A stretch of 64,000 nucleotides of DNA from Robertkochia flava (GTDB taxonomy: Bacteria; Bacteroidota; Bacteroidia; Flavobacteriales; Flavobacteriaceae). The number at the start of each line of letters is the position of its first letter. Positions within the stretch are counted from its first letter, which is position 1. The position numbers were made by a program, and so were the translations under genes. The stretch lies in NCBI RefSeq assembly GCF_020166515.1, contig NZ_JAINZT010000004.1:62001-126000 (forward strand), given 5' to 3'. This document shows positions 1,914-17,294 of this stretch, piece after piece. The notes under the pieces are model-generated. The model was given only the letters and a program-made list of their open reading frames with translations. It was not told the DNA's origin and made no database searches.

Positions 1914-3442
1914 TCCGTATCAGCTTCACCGTTCACGAAACGCTCCCACTCCTCGAATTTTTCTTCATTCATGACCCGTTCCATCTTTACCTGACCTCCT
2001 TTTTTCTTACTGCGTTCATTCCAGCGATAGAAAACCTCCGGAGACACCACTTTTACCTTGACGCCTTTAAGGGCTTTATTCCGGGCTACACCGTAATTTT
2101 TATTGGCCTGCTGTAAATGGGAATCCAGGATCTCCGCCAGGGTGCCCTCGTCCTCAGTGGTTTCCGATCCGAGGTACCAGCAATGATAAAAGCCATCTTC
2201 AAATTCCTTTGCACAAATGGTATACTCAAGAATGCCTTTATCCAGGGTCTCTTCCAGGTGTTGTATTGCCTGGTCCAGTTTATTGACCGATAACTGGGAG
2301 CCTACCACATTGAGGAAGAATTTGGTACGGCCGGTAATTCGGATCTCCTTTCTTTTCAGATCGGTAAATTTGATGGTATCGCCAATGGAATAGCGCCAAA
2401 GCCCGGAGACTGTGCTTATGATGAGAATGTATTCGGTTTGGGCTTCCACCTCTGCGATGTTCAATGCCGGAGCGTCCTGGGATACCGAACCATCTTCTTT
2501 TATGTATTCGGGTAGGAAGGGTACAAATTCGAAGTATATCCCATTGTCGGTAAGTAACTTCATGGCGGTGGTTTCCGGCCGTTCCTGCAGGGCGATGAAT
2601 CCCTCAGAGGCCAGGTAGGTGTCGATCACCTCCACAGGTTTTCCCATAAGAGATTCAAAGTTTTTCCGGTAGGGTTCAAAAGCCACCCCTCCTGAGGTAT
2701 ACACCTGCAGGTTTGGCCATATGTCATGGATGTTGTCGAGACCGTTATGGTCGATCACTTTTTCCAGCATTAACTGTATCCAGGAAGGGATGCCACTAAT
2801 AGCTCCGATGTCCCATTCCTTTGCTTTTTCTGCGATCCTTTTTACACGTTCATCCCAATCGTCAATGGAAGCGATCGCTTCCCCCGGTTTATAAAATCCC
2901 CTGAACCAAAATGGAATATTATCTGCGCTGATCCCACTGATTTCTCCCTCTTTATGTCCGTCTCTGGTATCGAGATTGGTGGAGCTTCCCAGCATCAGGA
3001 TCTCCTTTTCAAAAAAGTCCGGAGACATCTCAAAATGGGTCATGGCATACACCTGCTGCTTACCGGCTTCGGTAATGGCATCGAGCATTTCACGGGTAAC
3101 AGGAATCCGCTTGCTTTCATTACCCGTTGTTCCGGAACTCAGGGCGTAGTATTCCGGAGCCCCCGGCCAGGTAATGTTTTCCTCCCCCTCATGGAGCCTG
3201 TACCACCACTCCTGATGAATCATGTTATAATCAAAATAGGGCAGGGCTTCCGAAAACGCAGCCTGCATGTCATCGGCCTCCAGAATTTCTCCGAAACCAT
3301 AGGCCTTTCCGAAAGCGGTGTCCCTTGCCGTATCCAACAGCATTTTTAAGACTTTTCTCTGTTCCTCAACGGGATCAGGTAACGCAGTCACCTGCTCCCT
3401 GAGTTCCAGATATCCTTTGATAATGTGTCCGAGAATGGCCAT
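1910..3442 (-). CDS. GH3 (auxin-responsive-type) acyl-adenylate-forming family protein
   Basis: 510 residues. The protein belongs to the GH3 branch of adenylate-forming enzymes: YYALSSGTTGNESKRIPVT is the ATP-binding loop near residue 107, and a C-terminal swivel region follows WRYSIGDTIKF and GRTKFFLNVVGSQLS. Plant GH3 proteins couple amino acids to acyl acids such as jasmonate or auxin. Bacterial homologues are common in Bacteroidota but their substrate is largely unknown. It is monocistronic as far as the sequence shows, cytoplasmic and full length. The start at 3442 (MAILGHIIKGYLELRE) fits the usual family N-terminus. Amide or ester formation from an acyl-AMP is the expected chemistry; the acceptor cannot be inferred. 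Confidence 0.87.
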   Translation of the reverse strand: MAILGHIIKGYLELREQVTALPDPVEEQRKVLKMLLDTARDTAFGKAYGFGEILEADDMQAAFSEALPYFDYNMIHQEWWYRLHEGEENITWPGAPEYYALSSGTTGNESKRIPVTREMLDAITEAGKQQVYAMTHFEMSPDFFEKEILMLGSSTNLDTRDGHKEGEISGISADNIPFWFRGFYKPGEAIASIDDWDERVKRIAEKAKEWDIGAISGIPSWIQLMLEKVIDHNGLDNIHDIWPNLQVYTSGGVAFEPYRKNFESLMGKPVEVIDTYLASEGFIALQERPETTAMKLLTDNGIYFEFVPFLPEYIKEDGSVSQDAPALNIAEVEAQTEYILIISTVSGLWRYSIGDTIKFTDLKRKEIRITGRTKFFLNVVGSQLSVNKLDQAIQHLEETLDKGILEYTICAKEFEDGFYHCWYLGSETTEDEGTLAEILDSHLQQANKNYGVARNKALKGVKVKVVSPEVFYRWNERSKKKGGQVKMERVMNEEKFEEWERFVNGEADTD

Positions 3443-3610
3443 AATGCGAATGATGTGAAATTATTATAATGCTCTGAAGTTACGAATTTACCAGGACCGG
3501 GCCAGGAAACGCGTGAGGTTCGGCGATTGGGAGGTGCTGTTGTAATGGAATGGGTATAGCCGGAGCGCTGAAATCGTCCCCCTTTTAAAGGGCGGCATCA
3601 TTAAAGCGGC

Positions 3611-3632
3611 AGCCCCCGGGAAGGAGGGGGCT
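3611..3632 (-). terminator. G/C-rich hairpin downstream of the NagZ-type gene
   Basis: AGCCCCC (3611-3617) pairs with GGGGGCT (3626-3632) across an 8-nt loop, 12 nt past the stop of the last gene of the minus-strand operon. The tract that follows on the minus strand is not T-rich, so intrinsic termination is plausible but not proven. Confidence 0.4.
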
Positions 3633-3643
3633 TATCCGGTTAT

Positions 3644-5224
3644 TTATAAATGAAAGGGCATCTGGCCTTTTGCCTGCAGGTCTCCTTTCAGGACCCTGGC
3701 AGCAGTAGTTTGAAATTCAGGAAGGTCCTGGCCCGAGACGATCACATCATAGGCCTTATGAAGGGAAGTTATCACCCGGATGGCATAAGGGTTACCAAAC
3801 AACAGCAAAGTGACCCGATGGCGGTTCAGGAGTTGTTCTATAAGTTCCAGGTTGTCCGGGCTTATCCCAAAATTGGAATGGGGCTTTATATTGGGAGGAT
3901 ATAAAGCAATAGCTATAGGATCTCTGGTGCTGAGCTTCAGGGATCCCGTATTTTCTTCCACCCTTATGGTGGTTATTCTTTTTGTTTTCCGAAGTTCTTC
4001 CAGAAAGCCGTTCTCTTTTTCGTGTGCTCCGATACATACGAAGGTATCCGGGATGTCTGTGGCCGAAGGCTGTTCACTGAGCCTGATCATGCTGAGGGCC
4101 GCAATTTCACGGTTTATCTTCGAGGCCCTGACCAGGTCCGGGGCACCTTGTCTTTCCTTTTTCTGCAGCAATCCCACCTTTTCCTTCATGGCGAGAATTC
4201 GCGCAACCGAATCCTTTATTGCTGATTCCCCGCAATGGTCCAGGATCTTATTCTTGCCTTCTGCAATGTGTTCGGAAAAACAGAGAATATCGTTCCCGGC
4301 CTCGAAGGCTTTTTGTTCAAGGATTCCCTTTTCGGAGTATATTTTGCATACACTGTGCATATTGAGGGCATCCGAGATCACCACCCCATCAAAACCGAAT
4401 TCTTCCCGAAGCAGGCCTTTAATGATCTTTTCTGAAAGGGTTGCAGGAAGCGTCTCGTGACCGCTAAGTGCGGGGACGGCGAGATGACCCACCATAACAG
4501 AATCTACTCCCCGGTCGATAAGAGCTCTGAAAGGGGCGAGGTCTTCCTTCAGCATCTCTGCTCTGGATCGTTTGATCACTGGCAGTCCCAGGTGGGAATC
4601 CACGGCCGTGTCTCCATGCCCGGGAAAGTGTTTAAGACTGTTCAGGATACCGGCATCTGCAAGGCCACGGCAGAATGCCGCAGCTTTTCGGGTAACGTTT
4701 TCCCGGGATTCACCGAAAGAGCGGTAGCCAATAACCGGATTGTCCGGATTGCTGTTAATATCCACCACGGGGGCAAGATTATAGTCGATACCTACAGACT
4801 TCAGGTCTTTCCCCATTTGAAGCGCGGCTTGGTAAATAAGGTCGTCTCCCTCCTCGGGCATAGCACCCAGGGTAATGGCGTAAGGATAACAGGGGGTGTT
4901 TTCCACGCGCATGGCAAGTCCCCATTCCGCATCAATACTTATCAGCAGGGGGATCTCAGAAAGCGATTGGTAATGCGCGATCAGGGATTTAAGTTTCTCC
5001 AGGCTGTCCCGATAGGCGATCACCTCTTTTTTCTCGTAATTCGTGGCCGCACTGGCCCGGCTGTGAAAAAAGGTGAGTCCTCCGATCTTGTGTTCCCGGA
5101 TCAGGGTTTCGATCTGGCGGATGCCTTCTGCATCGTCATTGATAAACGCCGCAGGACAGAACAATTGCCCCGCCAGGTCATCCAGGGAGGAGTTGCTGAG
5201 TATTTTTGTGATGCTAGTCTTCAT
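3644..5224 (-). CDS. glycoside hydrolase family 3, NagZ-type beta-N-acetylhexosaminidase
   Basis: About 526 residues from the ATG at 5224. An alternative ATG at 5248 would add 8 residues and overlap the upstream gene more deeply. There is no obvious signal peptide, so it is probably cytoplasmic like NagZ. Counting from 5248, KHFPGHGDT with DSH (residues 206-219) is the Asp-His acid/base dyad special to NagZ-type enzymes, and DGVVISDALNM holds the nucleophile Asp at about 293. A second domain of about 170 residues follows. The reaction is removal of the non-reducing GlcNAc from GlcNAc-MurNAc or GlcNAc-anhydroMurNAc fragments. The start overlaps the transporter stop, so uptake and cleavage are coupled. 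It is the last gene of the SusC-led run. Confidence 0.85.
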   Translation of the reverse strand: MKTSITKILSNSSLDDLAGQLFCPAAFINDDAEGIRQIETLIREHKIGGLTFFHSRASAATNYEKKEVIAYRDSLEKLKSLIAHYQSLSEIPLLISIDAEWGLAMRVENTPCYPYAITLGAMPEEGDDLIYQAALQMGKDLKSVGIDYNLAPVVDINSNPDNPVIGYRSFGESRENVTRKAAAFCRGLADAGILNSLKHFPGHGDTAVDSHLGLPVIKRSRAEMLKEDLAPFRALIDRGVDSVMVGHLAVPALSGHETLPATLSEKIIKGLLREEFGFDGVVISDALNMHSVCKIYSEKGILEQKAFEAGNDILCFSEHIAEGKNKILDHCGESAIKDSVARILAMKEKVGLLQKKERQGAPDLVRASKINREIAALSMIRLSEQPSATDIPDTFVCIGAHEKENGFLEELRKTKRITTIRVEENTGSLKLSTRDPIAIALYPPNIKPHSNFGISPDNLELIEQLLNRHRVTLLLFGNPYAIRVITSLHKAYDVIVSGQDLPEFQTTAARVLKGDLQAKGQMPFHL

Positions 5225-6524
5225 TTCTTTCCTGATCTTTTTTACCATAATCCTGTGGGAATTTTAAATAGCGAACAACGAGGATACCCGGAATAGCTGC
5301 GATGACCACCCAGACAAAAAAACCGGTGTATCCCAGTAATTCCTGGACATATCCGCTGATCATCCCCGGAACCATCATCCCGAGAGCCATAAACCCTGTG
5401 GCAATGGCATAATGCGAGGTTTTGGATATCCCTTCTGCGATATAGATGAGGTACATGAGATAGGCGGCAAATCCAAACCCGTACCCGAATTGCTCTATCA
5501 CGACAACAACAGAAGCATACACCACGGACTCCGGGGTAAAAATGCTCAGCAGGACATAAAAGAGATTCGGCACGTTAAGGGCCAGGATCATGGGCAGCAT
5601 CCATTTGCCCAGGCCATCCCTGGAGATAACGAACCCTCCAAGAATACCGCCCAGGGATAGGGCAATGATGCCCAGGGTTCCGTAAATGGTTCCTACTTCG
5701 GTGGTACTGAGCGCCAGGCCGCCTGTTCCCCGTTCATCCAGGAGGAAAGGGGAGGCCATTTTAACCAGTTGGGATTCGCCCAGACGATACAGGAGAATAA
5801 AGGCCAGGGCAAGACCAATCTGTTCTTTCTGGAAAAAGGACTTAAAAACACCCACGAAATCCAGGTGTTGTTTCGGGGCTTCGGTATCCTGGTATTCCAC
5901 CTCCGGGGTGGTAAAGAAATTGATCAGGGTGAGTACTACCATAAGAAGCCCGGTGATAAGCATGGTATAGGACCACGCCCGGGTGTTGTCTCCATAATGC
6001 TCTTCGAGAAAACCGGCAACCACCACAATAAGTCCCTGTCCGGTGATCATGGCCAGGCGGTAAAAAGTACTTCTTACCCCGAGAAAAAAGGACTGCTTCT
6101 TTTCTGTGAGGGCGATCATATAATACCCATCAGAAGCAATATCATTGGTAGCAGAGGCAAATGCCGCCATCCAGAAACACGCCAGGGAAACCATAAAGAA
6201 TGCTGAGGTTCCCAGGCTGAACCCGGTGAGGAGGAAGGCCAGAGCCACCAGGAGCTGCATACCAAGAAACCATTTGCGCTTGGTCCCCTTCAGGTCTACT
6301 ATAGGGCTCCATATGGGCTTGATCACCCATGGAAGGTAGAGTAAACTGGTGTAGAGTCCGATATCGGCATTGCTGACGCCAAGTTTCTTATACATGATGA
6401 CAGATACGGTAATCACGATCACATAGGGGATCCCTTCAGTAAAATAGAGGGAGGGTACCCACCACCAGGGGTTCTTGCTGTTTGCGGCTTCAGCCATTTC
6501 TTCTGAGTAGGTTTTCATATACAC
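5214..6524 (-). CDS. AmpG-like MFS transporter (probable muropeptide/amino-sugar permease)
   Basis: 436 residues with about 12 predicted membrane segments. The N-terminal motif WWVPSLYFTEGIPY, then YTSLLYLPWVIKPIWSP, resembles AmpG-like major facilitator permeases of Bacteroidota. These carry anhydro-muropeptides or related GlcNAc-MurNAc products from periplasm to cytoplasm. The assignment rests on the motif and on neighbours: NagZ-type enzyme downstream with overlapping start, GHL10 glycosidase and SusCD upstream, MurQ across the intergenic region. The start may be 6524 or the second ATG at 6518; both overlap the end of the GNAT gene. The exact substrate is inferred, not seen. Confidence 0.78.
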   Translation of the reverse strand: MYMKTYSEEMAEAANSKNPWWWVPSLYFTEGIPYVIVITVSVIMYKKLGVSNADIGLYTSLLYLPWVIKPIWSPIVDLKGTKRKWFLGMQLLVALAFLLTGFSLGTSAFFMVSLACFWMAAFASATNDIASDGYYMIALTEKKQSFFLGVRSTFYRLAMITGQGLIVVVAGFLEEHYGDNTRAWSYTMLITGLLMVVLTLINFFTTPEVEYQDTEAPKQHLDFVGVFKSFFQKEQIGLALAFILLYRLGESQLVKMASPFLLDERGTGGLALSTTEVGTIYGTLGIIALSLGGILGGFVISRDGLGKWMLPMILALNVPNLFYVLLSIFTPESVVYASVVVVIEQFGYGFGFAAYLMYLIYIAEGISKTSHYAIATGFMALGMMVPGMISGYVQELLGYTGFFVWVVIAAIPGILVVRYLKFPQDYGKKDQERNED

Positions 6525-6969
6525 TTTTTTCGGAGCCTTCTATAACGACGGCATTGACATTCTTTTTATAGTATTCTTCAGGGCCAACCCCACCTATGAT
6601 CCCGTAGGCATACCCCATTTCTCTAAGTGCCTGCAGGGCTTTTATCAGCAGTACCTTCCCGATCCCTTTTCCACGTGCTGCTTCCAGGGTGCCCGTGGGG
6701 CCAAAAAAGGCCTTTGCCGTGGTTTCGTAACATGCAAATCCCAGAATTTCATTGCCTTTCTGGGCGACAAAGCAGCTCACAGGTTGGCGGCTGAAGGCCA
6801 CTTCTACCTCGTTGGCCCAGAATTCACTGAAATGGGTTCCTGCCCATTGACTCACCAGGCTTTTCTCCGGGGCAATAGGCCTGCGGATAACAATGCCTTC
6901 AGCAGCAAGTGCGTTTTCTTTGTCAGAAATATCCGGGAGTTCCGTTAGGCGAACAAGCATGTCTTTCAT
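6490..6969 (-). CDS. GNAT family N-acetyltransferase
   Basis: 159 residues. The acetyl-CoA loop is visible as ARGKGIGKVLL (about residues 97-107), preceded by LGFACYETTAKAFFGPTGTLE, the beta4/beta5 region of GNAT enzymes. It is full length with no signal peptide. It sits 10 nt after the GHL10 gene and overlaps the transporter start by about 35 nt, so it is embedded in the presumed peptidoglycan-recycling operon. A role in acetylating an amino sugar or a released amino acid is suggested only by position. The ending YENLLRRNG is typical of the family tail. Confidence 0.8.
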   Translation of the reverse strand: MKDMLVRLTELPDISDKENALAAEGIVIRRPIAPEKSLVSQWAGTHFSEFWANEVEVAFSRQPVSCFVAQKGNEILGFACYETTAKAFFGPTGTLEAARGKGIGKVLLIKALQALREMGYAYGIIGGVGPEEYYKKNVNAVVIEGSEKSVYENLLRRNG

Positions 6970-6979
6970 AAGCTGGTTT

Positions 6980-8491
6980 TTATAGTTTCAGGGTTTTCAA
7001 TGCACTTTCGTTACCATAGCGATCGACCAGAGAAAAGATCAGGACACGACCTGCAGGGTTGGGAATGTCCACAGAGATCTTCTGATCGCTGCTGTACACC
7101 GGTACCACCGCTTTAATGGAGGCAGCGCGTTCGGCCTTTCGTTTGCTGGGACGTTTCAGGTCATAGACCACTACTTCCTTAATGGGGGCCGGAGCAGCAA
7201 GTTGTATCCCAAGGGTCAGGGTATCTTTTGTGTTGGCTTCCCCGGTAACCTCTGCTATTACAGGAGCAGACCCGGAACCCTTCATTGACGGAGCTATTGC
7301 CTTGTATTTGTAGGTTTCCCTGAGAAGTTCCACGATCTCATCACGATCCTTCATGAGCGACTTGGCACTAAAATAAATATTCCCGCCTACATTTTCGGCC
7401 TCCCTGGCAAGTTTTACCTGTTGAATGAGCTGGGTTTTATCTTTCCAGTCGGGGTCGTTGTCGGTCAGGGCCCTGTAGGCACCATTTCCTACGTACAGGT
7501 TGGCGTTTTCCGTATTTTGATCCCACCAGTTGAGGATGGTGCGGTGGGATGCCAGTTTGTGGTCCAGGGTCCAGTAGATCTGGGGAGCCAGGTAATCGAT
7601 CCATCCGTTGCGCAACCAGGAAAGCGGATCGGCATACAGGTCGTCGTAGTTGGTTTGTCCGGCCTGGGTATCTGAGCCACGGGGATCAACAGACTTGTTT
7701 CTCCATACCCCAAACGGACTGATTCCGAATTGTACCCAGGGCTTTCTGGATTTAATGTTGTGATGGAGCTGACGGATAAGGCTGTCTACATTGGCGCGAC
7801 GCCAGTCGTCGATCTCCTGCTCGCCATTGCGGTACCTGAGATAGGAGGTACTGTCTTTAAAAGTTTCGCCCTTGATCTTATACGGATAGAAATAATCGTC
7901 AAAATGAATGGCATCAATATCGTAGTTTTCCACCAGTTCATTGGTGATACTGGTGAGGTGGTCCTTCACCTCCGGAAGGCCCGGATCGTAATAGTATTTT
8001 TCTCCGTACCTGATCATCCATTCCGGGTGCTTGAAGAAGTCGTGATCTTTGCTAAGGCTTGCGGTGTCGAGATTGAAAGTAGCCCGGTAAGGATTCATCC
8101 AGGCGTGAAATTCCATCCCTCTTTGGTGGGTTTCCTCGATCATCCAGCGGAGGAGTTCATCATAGCCAGGTTCGGCCTGACCTTGCTGACCGGTCAGGTA
8201 GGCTGACCATGGCGATAGGGAAGAAGGGTAGAAGGCATCGCCGGCGGTACGGACCTGGACAATGGCGGTATTAAAGTGGAGTTCCTCGTAAAAATCCAGG
8301 ATCTCCAGGTAATCTTGTTTTTTCTTTTGCAGGGCATCGGTACCGTTTTTAGGCCAGTCGATATTGACCACGGTGGCGACCCATGCGCCGCGGAGTTCGC
8401 GTTTAGGGGGTTGGTTCCTGTGGCTTCCGCAGGAAACCAGAAATGGAATTATAAGGAGATAGCGTAAGAGAGAAATCAGGTGTCTGTTCAT
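6980..8491 (-). CDS. GHL10 (DUF187) family glycoside hydrolase lipoprotein, DigH-like
   Basis: 503 residues. A lipoprotein signal (MNRHLISLLRYLLIIPFLVSC, Cys about 21) exports it. Residues 33-345 form the GHL10 TIM-barrel domain, recognised by ELRGAWVATVVNIDWP, FHAWMNPYRA, IDAIHFDDYFYP and YLAPQIYW. A beta-sandwich domain of about 130 residues ends the chain (IPNPAGRVLIFSLVDRYGN). E. coli DigH of this family cleaves peptidoglycan glycan strands stripped of stem peptides, so this enzyme probably shortens denuded glycan at the outer membrane or cell surface before import. It is separated from susD by a hairpin and followed at 10 nt by the GNAT gene. Cleavage specificity is inferred. Confidence 0.85.
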   Translation of the reverse strand: MNRHLISLLRYLLIIPFLVSCGSHRNQPPKRELRGAWVATVVNIDWPKNGTDALQKKKQDYLEILDFYEELHFNTAIVQVRTAGDAFYPSSLSPWSAYLTGQQGQAEPGYDELLRWMIEETHQRGMEFHAWMNPYRATFNLDTASLSKDHDFFKHPEWMIRYGEKYYYDPGLPEVKDHLTSITNELVENYDIDAIHFDDYFYPYKIKGETFKDSTSYLRYRNGEQEIDDWRRANVDSLIRQLHHNIKSRKPWVQFGISPFGVWRNKSVDPRGSDTQAGQTNYDDLYADPLSWLRNGWIDYLAPQIYWTLDHKLASHRTILNWWDQNTENANLYVGNGAYRALTDNDPDWKDKTQLIQQVKLAREAENVGGNIYFSAKSLMKDRDEIVELLRETYKYKAIAPSMKGSGSAPVIAEVTGEANTKDTLTLGIQLAAPAPIKEVVVYDLKRPSKRKAERAASIKAVVPVYSSDQKISVDIPNPAGRVLIFSLVDRYGNESALKTLKL

Positions 8492-8504
8492 GGCTTAATG
8501 AAGA

Positions 8505-8536
8505 AAAAGGCCCGCCCACAATTGGGCGGACCTTTT
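8505..8536 (-). terminator. intra-operon terminator or attenuator between susD and the GHL10 gene
   Basis: AAAAGG and CCGCCC (8505-8517) pair with GGGCGG and CCTTTT (8524-8536) around a 6-nt loop with one internal mismatch or wobble. On the minus strand the stem is followed by TTTTTCTTC. It lies between the susD stop (8559) and the next start (8491), and would leave downstream enzymes at lower levels than SusCD by partial termination. Confidence 0.65.
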
Positions 8537-8558
8537 CCGATTAGGAATTCTAACTAAT

Positions 8559-9854
8559 TCAAACTTGAGGGTCTGTTGGTGTATTGGTATTTTTATCGCG
8601 CTCCACGTTCGGGTAAGGATACCAGTTACGGTTACGTTCCGCATTGGCATCACCGGGTCCGGGACGTCCGAAACGACGGCTGTCTTCAAGTTTTAAGCCG
8701 CTCATGTACATTTCGATACAACGATTTTTATAGATCTCCGTCAGTAAGCTCGCCTGATCAGTTGCGCCGGTATAGGCCGATAATCCGGCTCCTAATCCAA
8801 AAGCGTCCTCAGCGCCAGTCTTGGTTCTAACGACATCAAGAGCGGTTACGGCCTGAGCGGCTTGACCTTCACGGGCATGGGCCTCAGCTATGATCAGGTC
8901 CATTTCTCCTGGCACATAGATTGGGATCGAGGCTTCATCAGCGGTAAAAAAGCCTTTCCCGTTAGCCTCATTGCCTTCCAGGTAAAAAGCAATTCTGCCA
9001 TCGGCAGGGTCGGGAGCCAGAGCTCCTGTTAAGCCAAAATCTGGTAGCACATCGTAAACGTTGTTCGTAGTAAGCGAAGAACGGAATACCGGGTTCTGGG
9101 CTACGTTGTCGTAGATGAACACTGAGGTACTTCCGCGGTCTACTACGCTGGCGGCTGCAATGGCTTCAGAATGATTGCCCAGCATAAGCTGGTATCTTGC
9201 GATAAGAGCCTGTATAGCATTAGGCAGGTCGATATGATTTCCTACAGTATTTAATACGTTAGCAGGTACCTGGGTCCCTATTAATGAAGCCGCTTCCTGA
9301 AGACTGGAAACTGCAACCTGAAGTCCTTGTTCACGGGAAACAAATTCCTGATTAACTCCGGTTTCTACGGTTACATTTTCCCAGAACTGAGTCATGGTAC
9401 CTATAGAAAGCGCTTTATAGAATAAGCCGTAAGCGCGAATGGCATCGGCTGTTTCGGCCGGAGCTGCATTCTGAGCATTATCAATCACCTTTTGTGCATT
9501 ACTTCGCACTAAGTTCAGGTTGGTCCATAAATTGGTTACCACAGAGTTGCTTGGGGCCACACTGCTACCCCCGTTAAGCAAGGCGGCTAACTCGGCATTA
9601 CCTGCATTAAGAAGGGTAAGCTCCATGGCGCTAAATCCTGCTCCGGAGATCGAGGTATATACGGAACTGGCGCCACCTACGCTATATTGGTATTCAAGGC
9701 CAACAATGGACCCCAGTAAACCGTTAGTTTCCTGCAGCACCAAATCTGAATTCGGTGCATTCGGGTTGTCAAAATCAGTCTCACAAGATGGCATGGAAAC
9801 CATGATTCCCAGTGAGAGTAGTGAGGTATATATTATTTTCTTCATAGTTGTCAT
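8559..9854 (-). CDS. SusD/RagB-like outer-membrane glycan-binding lipoprotein
   Basis: 431 residues. The signal peptide ends in MVSMPSC, giving a lipoprotein with an acidic stretch just after the Cys (CETDFDNP), a pattern linked to surface display in Bacteroidota. The helical TPR-like SusD core follows, with the C-terminal family marks PIYVPGEMDLIIAEAHARE and MYMSGLKLEDSRRFGR. SusD proteins sit as a lid on their SusC barrel and bind the imported oligomer. It is translationally close to susC (stop 9857, start 9854 or 9845; the second ATG, MKKIIYTSLL, is equally plausible). It is shorter than starch-type SusD, as is common for small ligands. A peptidoglycan-derived ligand is inferred from the operon. 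Confidence 0.9.
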   Translation of the reverse strand: MTTMKKIIYTSLLSLGIMVSMPSCETDFDNPNAPNSDLVLQETNGLLGSIVGLEYQYSVGGASSVYTSISGAGFSAMELTLLNAGNAELAALLNGGSSVAPSNSVVTNLWTNLNLVRSNAQKVIDNAQNAAPAETADAIRAYGLFYKALSIGTMTQFWENVTVETGVNQEFVSREQGLQVAVSSLQEAASLIGTQVPANVLNTVGNHIDLPNAIQALIARYQLMLGNHSEAIAAASVVDRGSTSVFIYDNVAQNPVFRSSLTTNNVYDVLPDFGLTGALAPDPADGRIAFYLEGNEANGKGFFTADEASIPIYVPGEMDLIIAEAHAREGQAAQAVTALDVVRTKTGAEDAFGLGAGLSAYTGATDQASLLTEIYKNRCIEMYMSGLKLEDSRRFGRPGPGDANAERNRNWYPYPNVERDKNTNTPTDPQV

Positions 9855-9856
9855 TT

Positions 9857-12800
9857 TTAGAATGAAGCGTTGAGTCTTAGTTGGAATGAAGCCGGTATTG
9901 GCACGTTACCAAAGTCATCTCCACGAACAACATTACTGTTTCCTGCAGAGTTAGTTTCTGGGTCATATCCAGAGTAGTCATCGAATGAGATCAGGTTTCT
10001 TCCGATCAAACTCACACTGAAATTTTCCATAGACCCCAGTTTTCCGAAGTCGTAGGATAATTGCAATTCTCTCAGCTTAATGAAAGAACCATCTTCCACG
10101 TGGAATTCCTGGATACGAGGTCCGCGGAACCCTCCAATGGCAGCTACCCAGCCACGAGGTACTTCTCCACGAAGTTCTGCCTCCGCCAGCTGCCCGGATC
10201 CTACGTTATTTCCGGTGATGGAGTTCCAGTTGTAAACTTCGAAACCACCCATGGCATCAAACTGCATTCTGAAGCTAAGGTTTTTATACGTGAATTCATT
10301 GATAAAACTCGCAGTATAATCTGGAATTGGGTCCCCCAGAACCTTACGGATCGGAGTGCCGGTTGGTTGACCATTTGCATCTCGCATCGGTTCTCCTGTA
10401 ATATCATCTCCTCGCTCTACCTGCGGAAGTCCGTCGGCATCCAGGAGATAAGAACCATCGGGGTTACGCGCAAAATAAGTACCTACATAACTACTCAATT
10501 CTTCTCCGATCACAGCACTTTGTGTACCACCACCACCTCTCAGTGCTTCACCTGTACGTGCAGATGAGGTTATCGAGGTTACCTCGTTGTTGAGGGTACT
10601 TAAGTTAAAGGATGTATTCCAGGTGAAATTTTCATTTTTAACCGGAATGGCATTAACTAACATCTCGATACCACTATTGGTCATTGTTCCAATATTCGTA
10701 GTTGTGATACGCCCCCCCTGCGATGGAGCAAGAAAGACCGGTAAGATAAGGTCGGTGATATCCTGATTGAAATAAGTTCCCTGGAATGCAAGACGTCCTC
10801 CCAGGAAGGCCATATCAGCTCCCACCTCAAGTTCGCTCATTCGTTCCGGCTCAATCTCTTCATCACCAAGTCTGGTTGAAGGCACAAATCCTCCTAAAGA
10901 TCCCAGAAGAATAGGACTGGACAATGTAAATCGGTCATAGGCTCCGATGGCGGTAAGGTTACCGGCATCCCCGTAGGAAGCGCGAAGCTTTAAGGTATTA
11001 AAGAACCCTTCCTTATTCCAAAAATCAAAGTCAGATAAGACAACAGATGTGCTCACTTTTGGATAAAACTGATTTCTTTGGTCCTTTCCGAAACTGGAGG
11101 CGCCATCAAATCGTCCTGCCAAGGTCAGGTATATCTTGTTGTCAAAACTTATGTTTTCCTGTAAATATCCACCCCAGATTGAAAGTTCACTTCTGGATTC
11201 ACTTGGATTAGAGAAGTAGTTTTTTGCTGCACCGATGGTTTCAACAAAATCCAGAAGATCTCTACCTTCCGCACTGGACCGTTCTGAACGTCTGTAAAGG
11301 TAGTTTCCACCTACCGTACTGGTCAGTGAGAACATGTCGCTGATGTCCAGCTTATAACTGGCGGTAAAGTCGCTGGTACGGCTGAAGAAATTCAAGGTAG
11401 CAGTACTTACATATCCGTCAGGAAAGAAAGAGGCACTAACCGGTCCATAAGGGATTCTGGGCTGGAAGGTGTTTCCTTCCAGACTGTAGGTATCTATACC
11501 AAACGTGTACTTCAGGTTCAGATTCTCAATTGGAGTATAGTTAATGGTACTGTTGGCAATCATCCTGTTTGTTTCCTGAGTAATGTCGAAATCCTCAATT
11601 ACCGTCAAAGGGTTCACCCTTTGTTGTTCTACGGGTAAAAGGTTTCCATCGGCATCACGCTCGGTGTAGTTCCATACATTATCAGTAATAAACATGGTGC
11701 TTATAGGGCTAAAGAAGTTGTTCCCATTAGGCTTGTCTTCACTACTTGAGTTGGTGTAGATGATTCCTGCATTGATGTTTAGCTTGTCACCAATTTTCTG
11801 ATTTGCCGTAAGGCGAGCCCCGTACTTCTGGAAACTGGTGTTATCAATAATCCCCTGGTTACGACTGTAGTTGGTAGAGAAGTAATAATTACTTTTATCA
11901 TTCCCTGAAGACATGGAAAAATTGTTATCTGTTCCATAGGCGATATCTCTGAAAACACCATCCTGGAAATCGTAGCGGGTCACAGCATAGGTGGTTTCAT
12001 CAAGAGGTCCCCCCAGTCCGTTTGGTCCTGTTCCAGGGTTGGTTCCGCGATCGCCTCTAAGATTGGCGATCATCGTAAGACGATCTCCCGTGGTGGTAAG
12101 CCGTTCGTCTCCTGGAATACCAAAACGCTCCGGGAAATCATTAAAATCAAGACGCTTCCTTACATAGCTAACAGAAGCTGCCGTTGAAAATGAAATTTTA
12201 GGTTCTCCGGATTTTCCTTTTTTAGTGATGATTTGTACAACCCCATTCGATGCCAGAGACCCGTATATTGCTGCGGCCGAGGCCCCGCTTAATACCTCAA
12301 TACTCTCAATGTCGTTTGGGTTGATGTCTACAAGTCTGTTTTGTCCCGCCTGGAAAGATGTTCCCATAGCATCAGCGTTCAGATTGATCACATTAGAGGT
12401 GCTGTTATCGACGATCACTCCGTCGATCACGTATAGCGGTTCTGATGATCCGGTAATTGTACTTGGACCTCTCAATCGCACTGAGAAACTACCTGCCGGA
12501 TCCCCGGAGTTCTGGGTGATCTGTGCTCCGAGTGTTTTTCCTGAAAGTGCTGACAGAGCGTTATTTGATCCGGTGTTTGCGATGGATTCTGCCTTGATGG
12601 TGTTAATGGCATTTCCCAATTGTCTACGGTTGGTGCTTACTGCACTACCGGTTACCACCACTTCGTCAAGAGAGAGAAGGTCTTCAGAGAGTTGGAAATC
12701 GATGGTGTAATCGGTCTGACTTCCAACGTCTAAGGTGGCCCTGCTTGAGGTGAATCCAAGATAGGTGGCTTCAAGAACATAGGATCCTGACTCCAGGCCG

Positions 12801-13027
12801 ACATTCAATTGATAATTTCCGTCGAAATCCGTGGTGGTACCTAAATTAGTTCCTGATACCGCAACAGATACCCCTACCAGCGGTGTGCCGCTGCTTGCAT
12901 CTGTTACTTTCCCCGAAATGGAGACGATGTTGGCCTGAGCGATCATGGCCAACGGCAGCAACAGGAAGCCCAGAAACATCAGGGCTCTTGTTGTCCTACT
13001 GTTTTTAAGTAAGAATGTGTTGTTCAT
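9857..13027 (-). CDS. SusC/RagA-type TonB-dependent outer-membrane transporter
   Basis: 1056 residues. A signal peptide (cleavage after ...PLAMIAQA) precedes a carboxypeptidase-regulatory-like beta-sandwich at about 35-115 (VSISGKVTDASSGTPLVGV). The plug domain follows at about 120-270, with LRGPSTITGSSEPLYVIDGVIV and the SusC signature SIEVLSGASAAAIYG. The remainder is the 22-strand barrel ending in the aromatic FQLRLNASF. It imports oligomers across the outer membrane using TonB energy together with the SusD partner encoded 3 nt downstream. It is the first gene of the minus-strand run and diverges from the DeoR/MurQ genes; their 297-bp shared region holds candidate operators. Confidence 0.95.
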   Translation of the reverse strand: MNNTFLLKNSRTTRALMFLGFLLLPLAMIAQANIVSISGKVTDASSGTPLVGVSVAVSGTNLGTTTDFDGNYQLNVGLESGSYVLEATYLGFTSSRATLDVGSQTDYTIDFQLSEDLLSLDEVVVTGSAVSTNRRQLGNAINTIKAESIANTGSNNALSALSGKTLGAQITQNSGDPAGSFSVRLRGPSTITGSSEPLYVIDGVIVDNSTSNVINLNADAMGTSFQAGQNRLVDINPNDIESIEVLSGASAAAIYGSLASNGVVQIITKKGKSGEPKISFSTAASVSYVRKRLDFNDFPERFGIPGDERLTTTGDRLTMIANLRGDRGTNPGTGPNGLGGPLDETTYAVTRYDFQDGVFRDIAYGTDNNFSMSSGNDKSNYYFSTNYSRNQGIIDNTSFQKYGARLTANQKIGDKLNINAGIIYTNSSSEDKPNGNNFFSPISTMFITDNVWNYTERDADGNLLPVEQQRVNPLTVIEDFDITQETNRMIANSTINYTPIENLNLKYTFGIDTYSLEGNTFQPRIPYGPVSASFFPDGYVSTATLNFFSRTSDFTASYKLDISDMFSLTSTVGGNYLYRRSERSSAEGRDLLDFVETIGAAKNYFSNPSESRSELSIWGGYLQENISFDNKIYLTLAGRFDGASSFGKDQRNQFYPKVSTSVVLSDFDFWNKEGFFNTLKLRASYGDAGNLTAIGAYDRFTLSSPILLGSLGGFVPSTRLGDEEIEPERMSELEVGADMAFLGGRLAFQGTYFNQDITDLILPVFLAPSQGGRITTTNIGTMTNSGIEMLVNAIPVKNENFTWNTSFNLSTLNNEVTSITSSARTGEALRGGGGTQSAVIGEELSSYVGTYFARNPDGSYLLDADGLPQVERGDDITGEPMRDANGQPTGTPIRKVLGDPIPDYTASFINEFTYKNLSFRMQFDAMGGFEVYNWNSITGNNVGSGQLAEAELRGEVPRGWVAAIGGFRGPRIQEFHVEDGSFIKLRELQLSYDFGKLGSMENFSVSLIGRNLISFDDYSGYDPETNSAGNSNVVRGDDFGNVPIPASFQLRLNASF

Positions 13028-13200
13028 AATTTGAATTAGTTAATGAGTTATCGTTCTGTACTAATTGACAAAAGGCTGACTGGTGGTTGTTTTGGTTACG
13101 AAAACGTTTGAGAATCTGGGGCTTATCCCACTCAGGTCTCGTGTATGTGCAGCATTTTTGTACTATTAGCCTCTCAAATAAAGCAAAAAAAAACATATTG

Positions 13201-13280
13201 TGCAAGATATTGCAGTTTTTTGTAAGATAAATAAACATTTAACAGACAGTGTAGGAAAAATAAACTGCAAAAAGCTGCAG
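13201..13280. promoter_or_regulatory. two TGCA-type dyads, candidate DeoR operators
   Basis: Two perfect short inverted repeats lie about 50 bp apart between the divergent susC and deoR-type genes: TGCAA-N4-TTGCA (13201-13214) and CTGCA-N6-TGCAG (13265-13280). They share the TTGCAG/CTGCAA half-site. Placement upstream of both units suits binding by the adjacent DeoR-family regulator. The link is inference. Confidence 0.45.
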
Positions 13281-13295
13281 AAATAGAAATTTTGC

Positions 13296-13303
13296 TATAT
13301 TTG
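13296..13303 (+). promoter_or_regulatory. TAnnTTTG -7 box upstream of the DeoR-family gene
   Basis: TATATTTG matches the Bacteroidota -7 consensus TAnnTTTG and would place the transcript start about 15 nt before the ATG at 13325. No good -33 TTTG is present at the usual spacing. The second dyad lies just upstream, where a bound repressor would block this promoter. Confidence 0.5.
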
Positions 13304-13324
13304 TTAAAATCTCATTAAAAAAGC

Positions 13325-14074
13325 ATGTTAAAAGCCGAACGCCATCAGCACATTCTGAACGAGGTGAGTATTCGAAGCCGGATACAGCTCTCGGATATTG
13401 CAGAATCCCTGGGAGTATCCATAGATACCATTCGCCGGGATGTCAAGGAACTCGATGATAAGAACAAGCTCAAGAAAGTGCACGGTGGGGCCCTTTCCCT
13501 GGGGTATAATGTATTTCCCTTTAGTAACAGTGAGGTTTTTAACAAGGAAATGAAGGCGCATATTGCCCAGAAGGCCATTGGCCTTATCAAGGAAAATGCA
13601 GTCATCCTGATGAGTGGGGGAACCACCAACCTGGAATTGGCGCGACTTTTACCGACCAATCTCGATATCACCGTGTTTACCCCCAGTTTACCCATTGCCA
13701 TGCAATTGCTGGCACATCCCAAGGCGGATGTCATTCTTATCGGGGGGAAGATCTCCAAGAATGCCCAGCTGGCCATCGGAGCCCAGGTGGTCCAGGAACT
13801 GTCGAATATAAAAGCCGACCTGTGTTTCCTGGGAACCGGGTATCTCGACCTGGAGCATGGGCTCACGGAATTCGATTATGAGGTGGTGCAGGTGAAAAAG
13901 GCCATGATACAAAGTGCCAGGCGTACGGTGTCACTCTGTATTTCGGAAAAGCTTAATTCCGTACAGCGTTTTAAGACCTGTGATATCCAGGATATTGACG
14001 TGCTCATCACAGAATTACCCCCGGAAGCAGACATGCTTATGCCGTATAAGTCTTTTAACGTTAATCTAATTTAA
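13325..14074 (+). CDS. DeoR/GlpR-family transcriptional regulator
   Basis: 249 residues. The N-terminal winged helix-turn-helix carries the DeoR signature (RSRIQLSDIAESLGVSIDT, then RRDVKELDDK; about residues 17-50). The sensor domain at about 75-235 has the family's ribose-isomerase-like fold motifs (LMSGGTTNLELARLLP, LIGGKISKNAQLAIG, FLGTGYLDLEHGLT). Such regulators usually respond to phosphorylated sugars. Being 13 nt upstream of murQ and divergent from the SusCD operon, it probably senses MurNAc-6-phosphate or GlcNAc-6-phosphate and controls both units (inference). Confidence 0.9.
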   Translation: MLKAERHQHILNEVSIRSRIQLSDIAESLGVSIDTIRRDVKELDDKNKLKKVHGGALSLGYNVFPFSNSEVFNKEMKAHIAQKAIGLIKENAVILMSGGTTNLELARLLPTNLDITVFTPSLPIAMQLLAHPKADVILIGGKISKNAQLAIGAQVVQELSNIKADLCFLGTGYLDLEHGLTEFDYEVVQVKKAMIQSARRTVSLCISEKLNSVQRFKTCDIQDIDVLITELPPEADMLMPYKSFNVNLI

Positions 14075-14087
14075 CCCGGTACAAAGA

Positions 14088-14906
14088 ATGACAAAGATCA
14101 CAGAACAATCCTCCTTATATGACCACCTTGAAGAAATGTCGACAAGGGATATATTGACCCATATTAACGAGGAAGATAAAAAAGTGGCAATTGCCGTAGA
14201 AAAGGTGATCCCACAGATCAAGAAACTGGTGGAGGAACTCACCGGACGTTTCCTCGACGGGGGACGCCTGTTTTATATCGGGGCCGGGACCAGTGGCCGC
14301 CTGGGGATACTCGACGCTTCGGAAATTCCCCCCACTTTCGGAATGCCCTTTGACCGCGTGGTTGGAATTATCGCCGGCGGAGACGGAGCCATACGAAAGG
14401 CGGTCGAATTTGCGGAAGACGATACAGAACAAGCCTGGAAAGACCTGAAGGCATTCGATATTAATGAAAATGATGTGGTGGTGGGTATCGCAGCATCCGG
14501 AACCACACCATACGTTCTCGGGGGTATAAAAGCCGCCCGCGAACACGGAATTCTCACTGCGGGCATTACCAATAACCCGGACTCTCCCCTGGCCGTAGAG
14601 GCGCAGATCCCGATTGAGATCAATGTGGGCCCTGAATTTGTAACCGGAAGTACCCGTATGAAAAGCGGTACCTCTCAGAAACTGGTCCTCAATATGATCA
14701 GTACTGCTCTTATGATCCGGATCGGAAGGGTGGAAGGGAACAAGATGGTGAACATGCAGCTTACCAATAAAAAACTCGTGGAACGGGGGATCCGCTTCCT
14801 GATGGAGGAAGAGGATGTGGATAAGGAAACTGCAGCAGCCTACCTGGAACGATTCGGTTCGGTTAAAAAAGCGATCTCTGCCCTTAGGGAAAACCGCGGA
14901 TATTAG
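14088..14906 (+). CDS. murQ: N-acetylmuramic acid 6-phosphate etherase
   Basis: 272 residues. MurQ cleaves the D-lactyl ether of MurNAc-6-phosphate to give GlcNAc-6-phosphate and D-lactate, the committing step of cytoplasmic peptidoglycan recycling. The SIS domain shows GAGTSGRLG (66-73), DASEIPPTFG with the catalytic Glu at 79, and an AEDD acid near 110. GPEFVTGSTRMKSGT is the MurQ/GCKR signature. The C-terminal UBA-like helices (DKETAAAYLERFGSVKKAI) are present. It is slightly shorter than E. coli MurQ (about 298 residues), at both ends. It is cotranscribed with the DeoR gene 13 nt upstream. No MurNAc or anhydroMurNAc kinase is encoded in this window. Confidence 0.96.
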   Translation: MTKITEQSSLYDHLEEMSTRDILTHINEEDKKVAIAVEKVIPQIKKLVEELTGRFLDGGRLFYIGAGTSGRLGILDASEIPPTFGMPFDRVVGIIAGGDGAIRKAVEFAEDDTEQAWKDLKAFDINENDVVVGIAASGTTPYVLGGIKAAREHGILTAGITNNPDSPLAVEAQIPIEINVGPEFVTGSTRMKSGTSQKLVLNMISTALMIRIGRVEGNKMVNMQLTNKKLVERGIRFLMEEEDVDKETAAAYLERFGSVKKAISALRENRGY

Positions 14907-15176
14907 CGTCAGGCAAGTATTTTGAGCCGAGCAGTTTACACCAAAATCTAAAAATGACGTTTGCGCATGCCGTTGCAGCTTACGCGAAAATTCACAGGAC
15001 TTTGAGGTTTGCAGCCCTGGTGTTGCCGGAGGTTCTTCCTAAGCATCTGTGAATGCAGACGGACATAGGAAGTTGAAAAAGCACCTTTTTAGCCTCCCGA
15101 AACACCACCTGCTTATTACTCTGATTTTAGTTCGCGGATGTATGTCCGCTGTGGATTCTAATCCGTAAAAGGCGGA
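14907..15176. other. non-coding spacer after murQ with paired hairpins
   Basis: No credible gene is seen. Two adjacent inverted repeats occur near its end: GCGGA-N6-TCCGC (15134-15149) and TCTAATCCG-N7-CGGATTAGA (15157-15181, perfect 9-bp arms). Neither is followed by a T-tract, so they are not clear terminators. They share the CGGAT/ATCCG core. Confidence 0.4.
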
Positions 15177-15320
15177 TTAGACCCGGGCTTCCCGGGTCCT
15201 GTCCACTTCAGGGATCGTGTCGGATAGTCTTACCCTTCTGTACCAGGCGCTATACCTAATGGCAAAGCCCATAGCGATCAGCATGACGGGCAATACAAAA
15301 TACAGGAACCTTTTTAACAT
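15177..15320 (-). CDS. small 47-residue single-span membrane protein (tentative)
   Basis: A 47-codon ORF starting at ATG 15320. It has a basic N-terminus (MLKRF), one hydrophobic stretch (LYFVLPVMLIAMGFAI), then a basic patch (RYSAWYRRVR) and a polar tail ending in TREARV. That is the layout of a small inner-membrane protein with its tail in the cytoplasm by the positive-inside rule. Its stop codon lies inside the right arm of the hairpin at 15157-15181. No homologue is recognised. The composition is protein-like, but an ORF this short could be chance. Confidence 0.4.
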   Translation of the reverse strand: MLKRFLYFVLPVMLIAMGFAIRYSAWYRRVRLSDTIPEVDRTREARV

Positions 15321-15550
15321 GTCATTATTTCTTAAAGTATTGAAAAGGCGTTAATATAGGTACGTCAGCAGGTAGTGAAGTAATAAAGTTATTGGCTTCT
15401 TTCAGGAATACTTGTATCCTTAATCCTTAATTTCACTGAAGATGTCGTTAGCATACGGTGGCTTTGCCCGGAAATCGGTTGCGTACATATATTTCAGATG
15501 GAATAGGAATAACCCGAACGAACTTCATACTTTATTTTTTTCCCATCCCT

Positions 15551-15597
15551 ACATCCCCACCTCCCCACATCCCCACCTCCCTAACTCCCCACATCCC
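15551..15597. repeat. C-rich direct repeat in the amidase leader
   Basis: ACATCCCCACCTCCCC (15551-15566) is repeated at 15567-15581, and a degenerate third copy (CTCCCCACATCCC) follows. The remainder of 15321-15644 carries no convincing gene; short ORFs through the repeat read only low-complexity Pro/Thr/His. Confidence 0.6.
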
Positions 15598-15644
15598 TTC
15601 ATCACCTCACTACTTTGTTATATCTTTAAGGAAAAAATATCTCT

Positions 15645-17294
15645 ATGCGTAATACTTTACTGCTATGTCTGATGTGTTCCCTGTTCTGGGCATGTAAACA
15701 GGAAGCCCGTCAGCAGGACGATGTTCTGGTTTATAACGAGGAGCATCTCCTCGAGGAACAACAGCAACATGAAAACCCGAGAATGCGTTTCAAGCTCATC
15801 ACTTCCAGGGTAGACCGTGAAGATCTTTTTGCTTCCTTCGAAAAGGAGCTCAATGCCTTTGGAGAAGCGCGCTATATAAATATGAAGCCTCTGGTTCTGG
15901 AGCGTACCATACCTGAACTTCAGTCATCTGTGGCAGCAGGGGAGTTTACCTATCGCGAATTATGCCTGTTCTATCTGTGGCGTATCCAAAAATTTGAAAG
16001 CGATCCGGAAACCGCTCTGCACACCATTATCAGCCTGAATCCTGATATTCTGCAAAAGGCAGAAGAGCGCGACCTCAAACGAACGGAGGTCCCGGACCGC
16101 CATCCGCTGTACGGGATGCCGGTGCTTCTCAAGGATAATATCGGGGCTTCAGGAATGCCCACAACCGCCGGGGCAGTAGCTTTGATAGACAACCATCCGG
16201 AAGATGCTTTTATTACAAAGCAGCTTAAAAAGCACGGGGCTTTGATCCTTGGAAAGGTAAATCTTAGTGAATGGGCTTATTATTTTTGCCAGGGGTGCCC
16301 TGTAGGGTATTCGGCCGTGGGCGGGCAAACCCTCAATCCTTACGGACCCCGAAAATTTGAAACCGGAGGATCGAGCTCCGGCAGTGGAGTAGCGGTGGCT
16401 GCAAATTATGCGGTAGCTGCCGTAGGTACGGAAACTGCGGGATCTATCCTTTCTCCTTCCGGTCAGAATGCGGTAGTGGGGTTAAAGCCTACGGTGGGTG
16501 TGCTCGGTAGAACGGGAATCGTCCCGATCTCCAGTACCCTGGATACTCCCGGGCCAATGACCCGAAGCGTGGTAGATAATGCTATAATGATGGATGCCAT
16601 GTCGGGAGAAGATCCTGATGATGCGGCTTCGGTGGTGGAATCCTTTGATTACCTAAAGGGCCTGGATACCCTGACTCTTGCGGGAAAGACCTTTGGGGTG
16701 TATCAGCCGTATATGGAAAGGGATACCCTGTATTCGCAAACCGTCAGGACTCTGGAAGAAGCCGGAGCTCAACTGCAGTATTATGAAGAGCAGGAAGGTA
16801 CGGAATTACAGGGGTTTCTTACCCTGCTTAATATCGACATGAAATACGACCTTCCCCAATACCTCGATACCCAGGCATCCAGAAATATTATGGTTCACGA
16901 TGTGGCCGATGTGGTCGAATTCAACCTTCAGGATTCCCTGGTGCGAATGCCTTACGGGCAGGCCTTATTCGAGGGGATCCTGAAAGACAGTACAACCACT
17001 ACCGAACTGGAGGCTATTAAGGAGCGTCTCAGGATTGCCGGGCAGCGGGTATTCGATCCTGCGCTGAAGGCCGGAAATGTAGATGCATTCCTGTCGGTCA
17101 ATAATTATTCTGCGGCTCATGCGGCGGTGGCGAAATATCCTGCTCTATGTTTACCCATGGGCTATCGCAATGATGGAGAGCCCGCCGGGATTACCCTTAT
17201 CGGACTGCCGTATTCGGAGCCGGAGTTGCTGCAGCTGGGGTATGCGATCGAACAGGTGCTTAAAGCGAGAAAGAGTCCATCTAAATATAATTAA
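15645..17294 (+). CDS. amidase-signature family hydrolase, lipoprotein
   Basis: 549 residues. The lipoprotein signal peptide (MRNTLLLCLMCSLFWAC) sends it to the envelope, unlike cytoplasmic GatA. The amidase-signature core starts at about residue 85. Its Ser-cisSer-Lys triad is visible as K163 (MPVLLKDN), the serine cluster of GGSSSGSG (241-248) and the nucleophile region GTETAGSILSPSG (S267). It hydrolyses a carbon-nitrogen amide bond; the substrate is unknown. A small membrane protein gene follows 6 nt downstream. It is full length for envelope amidases of this type. The ATG at 15645 directly precedes the signal sequence and is preceded by an A-rich AAGGAAAAAAT stretch. Confidence 0.9.
   Translation: MRNTLLLCLMCSLFWACKQEARQQDDVLVYNEEHLLEEQQQHENPRMRFKLITSRVDREDLFASFEKELNAFGEARYINMKPLVLERTIPELQSSVAAGEFTYRELCLFYLWRIQKFESDPETALHTIISLNPDILQKAEERDLKRTEVPDRHPLYGMPVLLKDNIGASGMPTTAGAVALIDNHPEDAFITKQLKKHGALILGKVNLSEWAYYFCQGCPVGYSAVGGQTLNPYGPRKFETGGSSSGSGVAVAANYAVAAVGTETAGSILSPSGQNAVVGLKPTVGVLGRTGIVPISSTLDTPGPMTRSVVDNAIMMDAMSGEDPDDAASVVESFDYLKGLDTLTLAGKTFGVYQPYMERDTLYSQTVRTLEEAGAQLQYYEEQEGTELQGFLTLLNIDMKYDLPQYLDTQASRNIMVHDVADVVEFNLQDSLVRMPYGQALFEGILKDSTTTTELEAIKERLRIAGQRVFDPALKAGNVDAFLSVNNYSAAHAAVAKYPALCLPMGYRNDGEPAGITLIGLPYSEPELLQLGYAIEQVLKARKSPSKYN

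Follow-up and report, generated by a model that had tools for sequence, protein, structure and literature searches.

Robertkochia flava, a member of the Flavobacteriaceae, carries a run of eight genes that is probably an operon for peptidoglycan salvage, under DeoR control, to which an outer-membrane importer of the SusCD type has been added. The run occupies positions 3644 to 14906 of a stretch of 64,000 nucleotides on contig 8 (here called the window, to whose positions our coordinates refer) of an assembly of 3.45 Mb that is 99.99% complete. The gene content, its conservation in relatives, the operator-like sites and the presence of AnmK, NagB and NamZ genes in the genome were all observed directly. 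Plant and algal glycans are the best-known substrates of SusCD systems. A SusCD family that is repeatedly tied to genes for N-acetylmuramic acid (MurNAc) would mean that marine Bacteroidota use such machinery to forage on bacterial wall material as well, which makes up a large organic-matter pool.

All eight genes stand at the positions and on the strands that an initial annotation, made from this DNA alone, had given them. We scanned their products with Pfam and NCBIfam profiles at curated cut-offs. On the forward strand lie a DeoR-family regulator (13325 to 14074; DeoRC, 142.7 bits against 31.8, E 1.3e-41) and the MurQ etherase (14088 to 14906; TIGR00274, 316.3 bits against 302). On the reverse strand are a SusC-like TonB-dependent transporter (9857 to 13027; TIGR04056, 588.2 bits against 368.25), a SusD-like lipoprotein (8559 to 9854; PF07980, 27.8 bits against 23.1), a GHL10 lipoprotein that is a candidate DigH-type glycan hydrolase (6980 to 8491; PF02638, 250.6 bits against 27.9, E 2.6e-74) and a GNAT acetyltransferase, proposed to be a glucosamine or glucosaminide N-acetyltransferase (6490 to 6969; Acetyltransf_1, 34.9 bits against 20.7). 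These six families, as named in the initial annotation, are above their cut-offs. The other two names hold at family level, because both proteins fall under the NCBIfam equivalog or subfamily cut-offs: an AmpG-like permease of the major facilitator superfamily (5214 to 6524, reverse strand; TIGR00901, 180.6 bits against 350, E 4e-53), whose position is conserved in relatives, and a NagZ-like GH3 beta-N-acetylglucosaminidase (3644 to 5248, reverse strand; PF00933 Glyco_hydro_3, 240 bits; PRK05337, 168.7 bits against 207). With SusC and SusD adjacent and above cut-off, and GH3 and GHL10 on the same strand, the locus has the gene content of a SusCD polysaccharide utilization locus (PUL). The reading frames of the GNAT, the AmpG-like permease and the NagZ-like GH3 overlap, an arrangement as in one operon, and the same gene order recurs in the related loci L003, L004 and L009, so that it is not due to chance.

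A lipobox (LVSC) can be read by eye in the GHL10 protein, and Cys24 of the SusD is invariant in an alignment of 13 sequences. The GHL10 protein invites comparison with Escherichia coli DigH, which we take to belong to the GHL10 family (PF02638). DigH is described, in passages of PMC12288456, as a hydrolase of denuded glycan that works in the division of the cell itself. The closest solved relative of the NagZ-like protein is the GH3 beta-N-acetylglucosaminidase 6k5j (E 8.9e-62), and the stretch KHFPGHGDT...DSH is aligned; a His/Asp dyad is the proposed acid/base of a few GH3 beta-N-acetylglucosaminidases (PMC4680927, in part). By eye the NagZ-like protein has no signal peptide, and it is therefore probably cytosolic. 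A terminator-like hairpin lies on the reverse strand at 8514 to 8531, between susD and the GHL10 gene; such hairpins are not clearly enriched in the region (19 found, against a mean of 13.6 and a standard deviation of 4.3 in shuffles).

The conservation of the genes around murQ shows which part of the locus is core and which was added. A MurQ scan gave 80 named loci. We counted the 37 with DeoR directly upstream of MurQ, which together with the window make 38 rows; the other 43, some of them short contigs, were left uncounted, and L001, a piece of this same genome, was dropped. As the flanks reach only 10 kb or the contig end (in L021 and L034 the sequence stops short of the whole slot), distal genes are undercounted. 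The MurQ of the window is 85% identical to that of Robertkochia sediminum and 84% to that of R. marina. In the run divergent from DeoR, NagB occurs in 31 of the 38 rows, AmpG in 31, NagZ in 27, AnmK in 19, GHL10 in 22, SusC in 14 and GNAT in 12, the names NagB, AmpG, NagZ and AnmK being taken from representatives; the NagB-like protein of the relatives is NagB plus a PIG-L domain (PRK02122). Since SusC is present in 14 of 38 rows, SusC-SusD-GHL10-GNAT is, judged from gene order, an accessory block in an existing anhydro-muropeptide operon, placed between AmpG and, in the rows that have it, NagB. Nine of the 24 SusC-less rows also hold GHL10. One of these 24, L019, carries SusC, SusD, GHL10 and an edge-cut GNAT and was counted as SusC-less because a second DeoR breaks its run; L019, L159 and L160 each carry a DeoR gene divergent from NagB and a second divergent from SusC, with an operator-like site in each gap. 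SusC lies within 10 kb of MurQ in L057, L059, L065, L072, L073 and L075 (Sphingobacterium, Pedobacter, Pontibacter), and those loci also hold a sodium:solute symporter cluster and a metallophosphatase/PQQ-propeller cluster.

The SusD itself is linked to MurNAc genes beyond these rows. In a blind survey of 299 genomes of the family (MurQ at E<=1e-40, SusD at E<=1e-30), MurQ is found in 282 and this SusD in 23, the window's genome included, with one match per genome; this genome alone encodes about twelve SusD_RagB proteins, judged from 13 matching stretches of which two share a frame. For each of the 22 SusD matches in other genomes, up to 20 kb of surrounding sequence was scored with profiles built from the named loci. 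These neighbourhoods hold MurQ in 10 cases, NamZ (annotated as an exo-muramidase, PF07075/PF20732) in 7, AnmK in 7, NagZ in 8 and DeoR in 14. In 15 of the 22 there is at least one of MurQ, AnmK and NamZ, and 16 have an amino-sugar gene of some kind. The chance that a random place shares a 20-kb stretch with MurQ is about 0.6% (20 kb in 3.5 Mb). In L165 and L173 the next 20 kb bring MurQ, NagB and a further NamZ. No identical 200-base stretch is common to the survey loci and the named loci, which makes the two sets separate, if related, sequences.

This linkage also bears on the idea that SusCD is a passenger in the operon and serves an unrelated glycan. The slot is indeed exchangeable: in L011, L014 and L029 the place between DeoR/NagB and GHL10 holds a SusD of another cluster (in L029 of the PF12771 family, for the member scanned), with a SusC only 31-32% identical to that of the window, while GHL10 and GNAT are kept. 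Against a passenger stand the recurrence of the same SusD near MurNAc genes in the survey and a predicted operator in the SusCD promoter region in several genera, and we consider this idea highly improbable.

Two further enzymes appear in the same surroundings. A long FAD/Fe-S oxidase is present in 2 of the 22 SusD neighbourhoods and an MR_MLE enzyme in 2; presumably they are of the D-lactate-dehydrogenase and dipeptide-epimerase types, respectively. The oxidase lies near MurQ in L171, L164 and L178, as well as in L059, L065, L072 and L074, which would fit the D-lactate released by MurQ. An open reading frame in L169 that matched a long GH3 query was discounted, having no NagZ profile score and being of beta-lactamase type by eye.

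A predicted operator would tie the importer to the rest of the pathway. We gathered 40 DeoR gaps for a 16-base weight matrix (consensus acaGCAAAAAACtGCA) and trained it on 37 gaps of relatives, excluding L001, the window itself and L010 (length 0); L003 (no site), L017, L018, L020, L023, L024, L034 and L046 were kept in training though without a site above 16. Between susC and deoR the matrix predicts two operators, at 13264 to 13279 on the forward strand (score 21.7) and at 13211 to 13226 on the reverse strand (16.8), against a 99th percentile of 9.6 in shuffled training gaps. In the survey loci, 11 of 16 divergent DeoR gaps score at least 15, compared with none of 118 other gaps, and no survey locus has a 40-base stretch in common with the training gaps; since the loci are related, the result speaks for conservation of one site and not for its repeated origin. 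L162 lies outside the 16, its DeoR gap of 38 bases being under the limit of 40; that gap has a site of 20.3 at its edge. Where SusC follows NagB, none of seven loci has a site of at least 10 in the gap between them; these gaps measure 15 to 63 bases in six loci and the genes overlap in L046, which makes co-transcription with NagB likelier.

Elsewhere in this genome, among 41 gaps in four stretches around AnmK, NagB and both NamZ genes, the best score is upstream of nagB (16.9) and the next is 10.6. The region upstream of this unlinked nagB has two operator-like sites 32 bases apart. In the stretches around AnmK and NamZ, the single match of at least 13 in L099 (13.8) is inside a gene, and L101 and L102 have none; further matches in the window score 14.8 at 10251, 13.4 at 60888 and 13.4 at 4667, while shuffling sequence of the same total size would yield 2.7 matches of at least 13. 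A genome-wide search with a consensus pattern gave 7 places (1 for the reversed control); because the pattern was chosen after three of the 7 had been seen, we rely on the weight-matrix result alone. Of the four remaining places, three are inside genes and one is between genes; by eye, the match at L180:5870-5882 falls between polA-like and ribosomal protein genes and is possibly due to chance. From these patterns we infer that DeoR binds the predicted operator, which offers a simple means of seeking unlinked members of the regulon.

The operator also helps in weighing whether the unit recaptures wall fragments shed by the cell itself, with SusCD set on an ordinary recycling pathway, and does not feed on other bacteria. 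Without SusCD, what remains is the ordinary anhydro-muropeptide route; SusC is missing from the run in 24 of the 38 rows (with L019 a special case), and MurQ is found in the great majority of the surveyed genomes, all of which fits such recapture. NagB, however, shares the operator, which points to use as carbon, and SusCD is variable among close relatives, as foraging genes would tend to be. Recapture of shed fragments seems quite unlikely.

Further genes of a salvage pathway are present in the genome, away from the locus. AnmK lies on contig 6 (C6:894744-895787), unlinked, and is 46% identical to the AnmK of L018 (E 1.1e-94); a NagB-like protein (56% identity) is encoded on contig 6 as well, apart from the murQ locus, and two NamZ genes are on contigs 9 and 12. 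Of the anhydro-muropeptide recycling set AmpG-NagZ-AnmK-MurQ, MurQ is above its cut-off and AnmK is in the genome, and AmpG and NagZ have family-level matches. No kinase family was found among the scanned genes from 1910 to 17294 that would put a MurK sugar kinase beside MurQ, as in the MurTKQ type of Tannerella. The use of peptidoglycan proposed in the initial annotation thus gains from the conserved NagB, AnmK and NamZ neighbours, the linkage of the SusD and the shared operator, although the locus is incomplete alone, with AnmK and NagB to be supplied from elsewhere in the genome.

The pathway chemistry is established for these families, and every substrate, the repression by DeoR and the order of the steps are what we infer from it for this locus. 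SusD and SusC would bind fragments of murein glycan and import them to the periplasm, and the GHL10 lipoprotein would shorten peptide-free glycan. The AmpG-like permease would carry disaccharide units to the cytosol, and the GNAT would re-acetylate any glucosamine (GlcN) so that NagZ can cut. AnmK would then yield MurNAc 6-phosphate, MurQ would convert this to N-acetylglucosamine 6-phosphate and D-lactate, and NagB, under the same operator, would pass the sugar to glycolysis.

The GNAT of the accessory block occurs in 12 of the 14 SusC rows and in none of the other 24 (13 of 15 and none of 23 if L019 is moved), and the two SusC rows without it are L027 and L046. The seven top Foldseek rows for its model (pLDDT 81) are the glucosamine N-acetyltransferases of Clostridium acetobutylicum (GlmA) and the fungal GH3 enzyme RmNag. 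In VIA-align the top place goes to 4zm6 (Z 14.4, 145 residues at 3.0 A) and the fourth to 5kf2 (Z 14.0, 142 residues at 3.3 A), level with 3tt2, 1sqh and 7q3a, for which no substrate appears in the title. When all solved sequences were searched with a profile, GlmA entries independently took the top 3 places, weakly (E about 0.004, the next 0.23); a single-sequence search of them did not list GlmA. The C. acetobutylicum entries 5kf1, 5kf2, 5kga and 5kgh, whose enzyme we take to be GlmA, are among the nearest solved folds and, of those with known function, the nearest. The GlmA gene reportedly lies near those for NagZ and MurK. GlmA has about 313-317 residues, compared with 159 in the GNAT of the window, which matches only its positions 147-310 at 15-17% identity; its catalytic residues are Asp287 and Tyr297 according to PDB mutant titles. 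In passages of PMC4680927, enzymes of the GlmA type acetylate GlcN before cleavage by beta-N-acetylglucosaminidase, RmNag acetylates GlcN as a requirement for cutting (GlcN)2, and such enzymes in bacteria are credited with repairing peptidoglycan fragments whose ends are non-acetylated, ahead of cleavage by glucosaminidase.

The co-occurrence of GNAT with SusC and its closest models suggest re-acetylation of de-N-acetylated fragments before NagZ. We therefore speculate, tentatively, that SusC-SusD-GHL10-GNAT may be dedicated to the uptake of de-N-acetylated peptidoglycan, with import across both membranes and cytosolic re-acetylation by the GNAT for NagZ and MurQ. De-N-acetylation of the wall is a common protection against lysozyme. 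If this were its role, fragments poorly handled by lysozyme and by ordinary recycling enzymes would become usable, and the coupling of the GNAT to the importer is a testable link between wall de-N-acetylation and scavenging. Relatives of the GNAT away from SusCD and MurQ in small flavobacterial genomes speak against it. A blind search finds the family in 6 of 299 genomes at 7 places, 6 of these away from the locus genes, and we rejected the GNAT as a general marker of peptidoglycan loci. Those six places (L093-L098) have no SusD, MurQ or other profile gene near, save for an incomplete SusC at the outer end of L093 and a weak match of metallophosphatase type in L098; in L095 the next two genes encode an amino-acid permease and a Fe-ADH_2 family protein, and the other loci match in length and order. 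Four aligned paralogs are 44-46% identical to the GNAT of the window, none of the 22 SusD neighbourhoods contains it, and its coupling to SusC is confined to Robertkochia, Muricauda-type genera and one Algicola metagenome-assembled genome. The coupling is thus a trait of a limited set of loci, and the GNAT may have another amine substrate.

The GNAT also lends itself to a reading in which SusCD imports chitin or chitosan oligosaccharides, NagZ and the GNAT convert them to N-acetylglucosamine, and MurQ is a neighbour that serves the turnover of the cell's own wall. Its likeness to the acetyltransferase region of the fungal GH3 beta-N-acetylglucosaminidase 4zm6, which enables the cutting of (GlcN)2 (PMC4680927, in part), and two GH20 matches in the genome would agree with this. 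A search of the genome gave no GH18 match, however (GH19 was not searched), and neither GH18 nor GH20 is among the eight locus genes. The relatives, moreover, pair this SusD with NamZ, AnmK and MurQ, for which we know of no role in chitin use. The chitin-binding SusD 8jxz ranks only 48th against a SusD model that is itself weak (pLDDT 66.3) and whose Foldseek matches are generic, with SusD proteins for laminarin, peptide (RagB) and chitin, NanU and uncharacterised SusD proteins alike. We find a chitin or chitosan importer unlikely. With the model so weak and the matches so mixed, the naming of a SusD ligand from structure was dropped.

Several observations weigh against the salvage operon with its own importer. 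The closest relative, L002 (MurQ 85% identical), has neither DeoR nor SusCD at murQ, and G223, apparently the same assembly with the same coordinates, has no match to the SusD or GNAT of the window. The expectation that murQ and SusCD are conserved together in Flavobacteriaceae is borne out in part from the side of the SusD, in 10 of its 22 other neighbourhoods, whereas murQ is mostly found without this SusD. Of the 14 SusC rows, nine come from Muricauda, Allomuricauda or Flagellimonas, so the row counts are not independent. Six of the 22 SusD neighbourhoods (L157, L162, L166, L169, L175 and L177) have no amino-sugar gene; L157 is a contig of 8.8 kb, and L162 and L166 keep DeoR beside SusC. 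Five of the 16 survey DeoR gaps are without a strong operator site, the weight matrix finds no operator upstream of the AnmK or NamZ genes of this genome, and the AmpG-like and NagZ-like proteins score below their equivalog or subfamily cut-offs.

A comparable arrangement has been described in a Urechidicola symbiont, whose murein-type PUL likewise joins susCD with deoR, murQ, nagB, ampG, GH3, GH171 and GH10 (PMC10199937, in part), and such a unit is therefore not unprecedented. Unlike the window, that PUL has two susCD pairs and extra genes (ampD, dacA, an epimerase, GH18 and others), and no GNAT is named in the section covered; in those passages its authors leave the substrates open. In the window's genome, by comparison, nagB, AnmK and NamZ lie apart from the locus, for which we predict an operator. 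The ampG-murTKQ genes of Tannerella forsythia form a single transcription unit that serves to scavenge MurNAc and muropeptides from outside; it includes MurQ and an AmpG whose function was demonstrated there, has MurT and MurK in place of AnmK and is regulated by GppX (PMC5388701, PMC7670621 and PMC10465942, each in part). The word 'SusD' is absent from all three, and 'SusC' is absent from PMC5388701 and appears once in PMC7670621. RmNag3 is placed without SusCD in passages of PMC6987092. In the open-licence literature, where absence is weak evidence, we found no paper joining MurQ, SusD, AmpG and NagZ, and the passages there on SusCD with peptidoglycan and muropeptide describe no such locus. 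The association of SusCD with MurQ is itself already reported; the novelty is in the GNAT and the regulon. Our additions, unprinted as far as the open-licence literature shows, are how often the SusD family occurs and what it is linked to, the predicted DeoR operator together with the unlinked nagB, and the GNAT.

Directly 3' of MurQ, the window encodes an amidase-signature protein with a lipoprotein-like start (15645 to 17294, forward strand), which among the 80 relatives is found at the same position only in L002 and L003.

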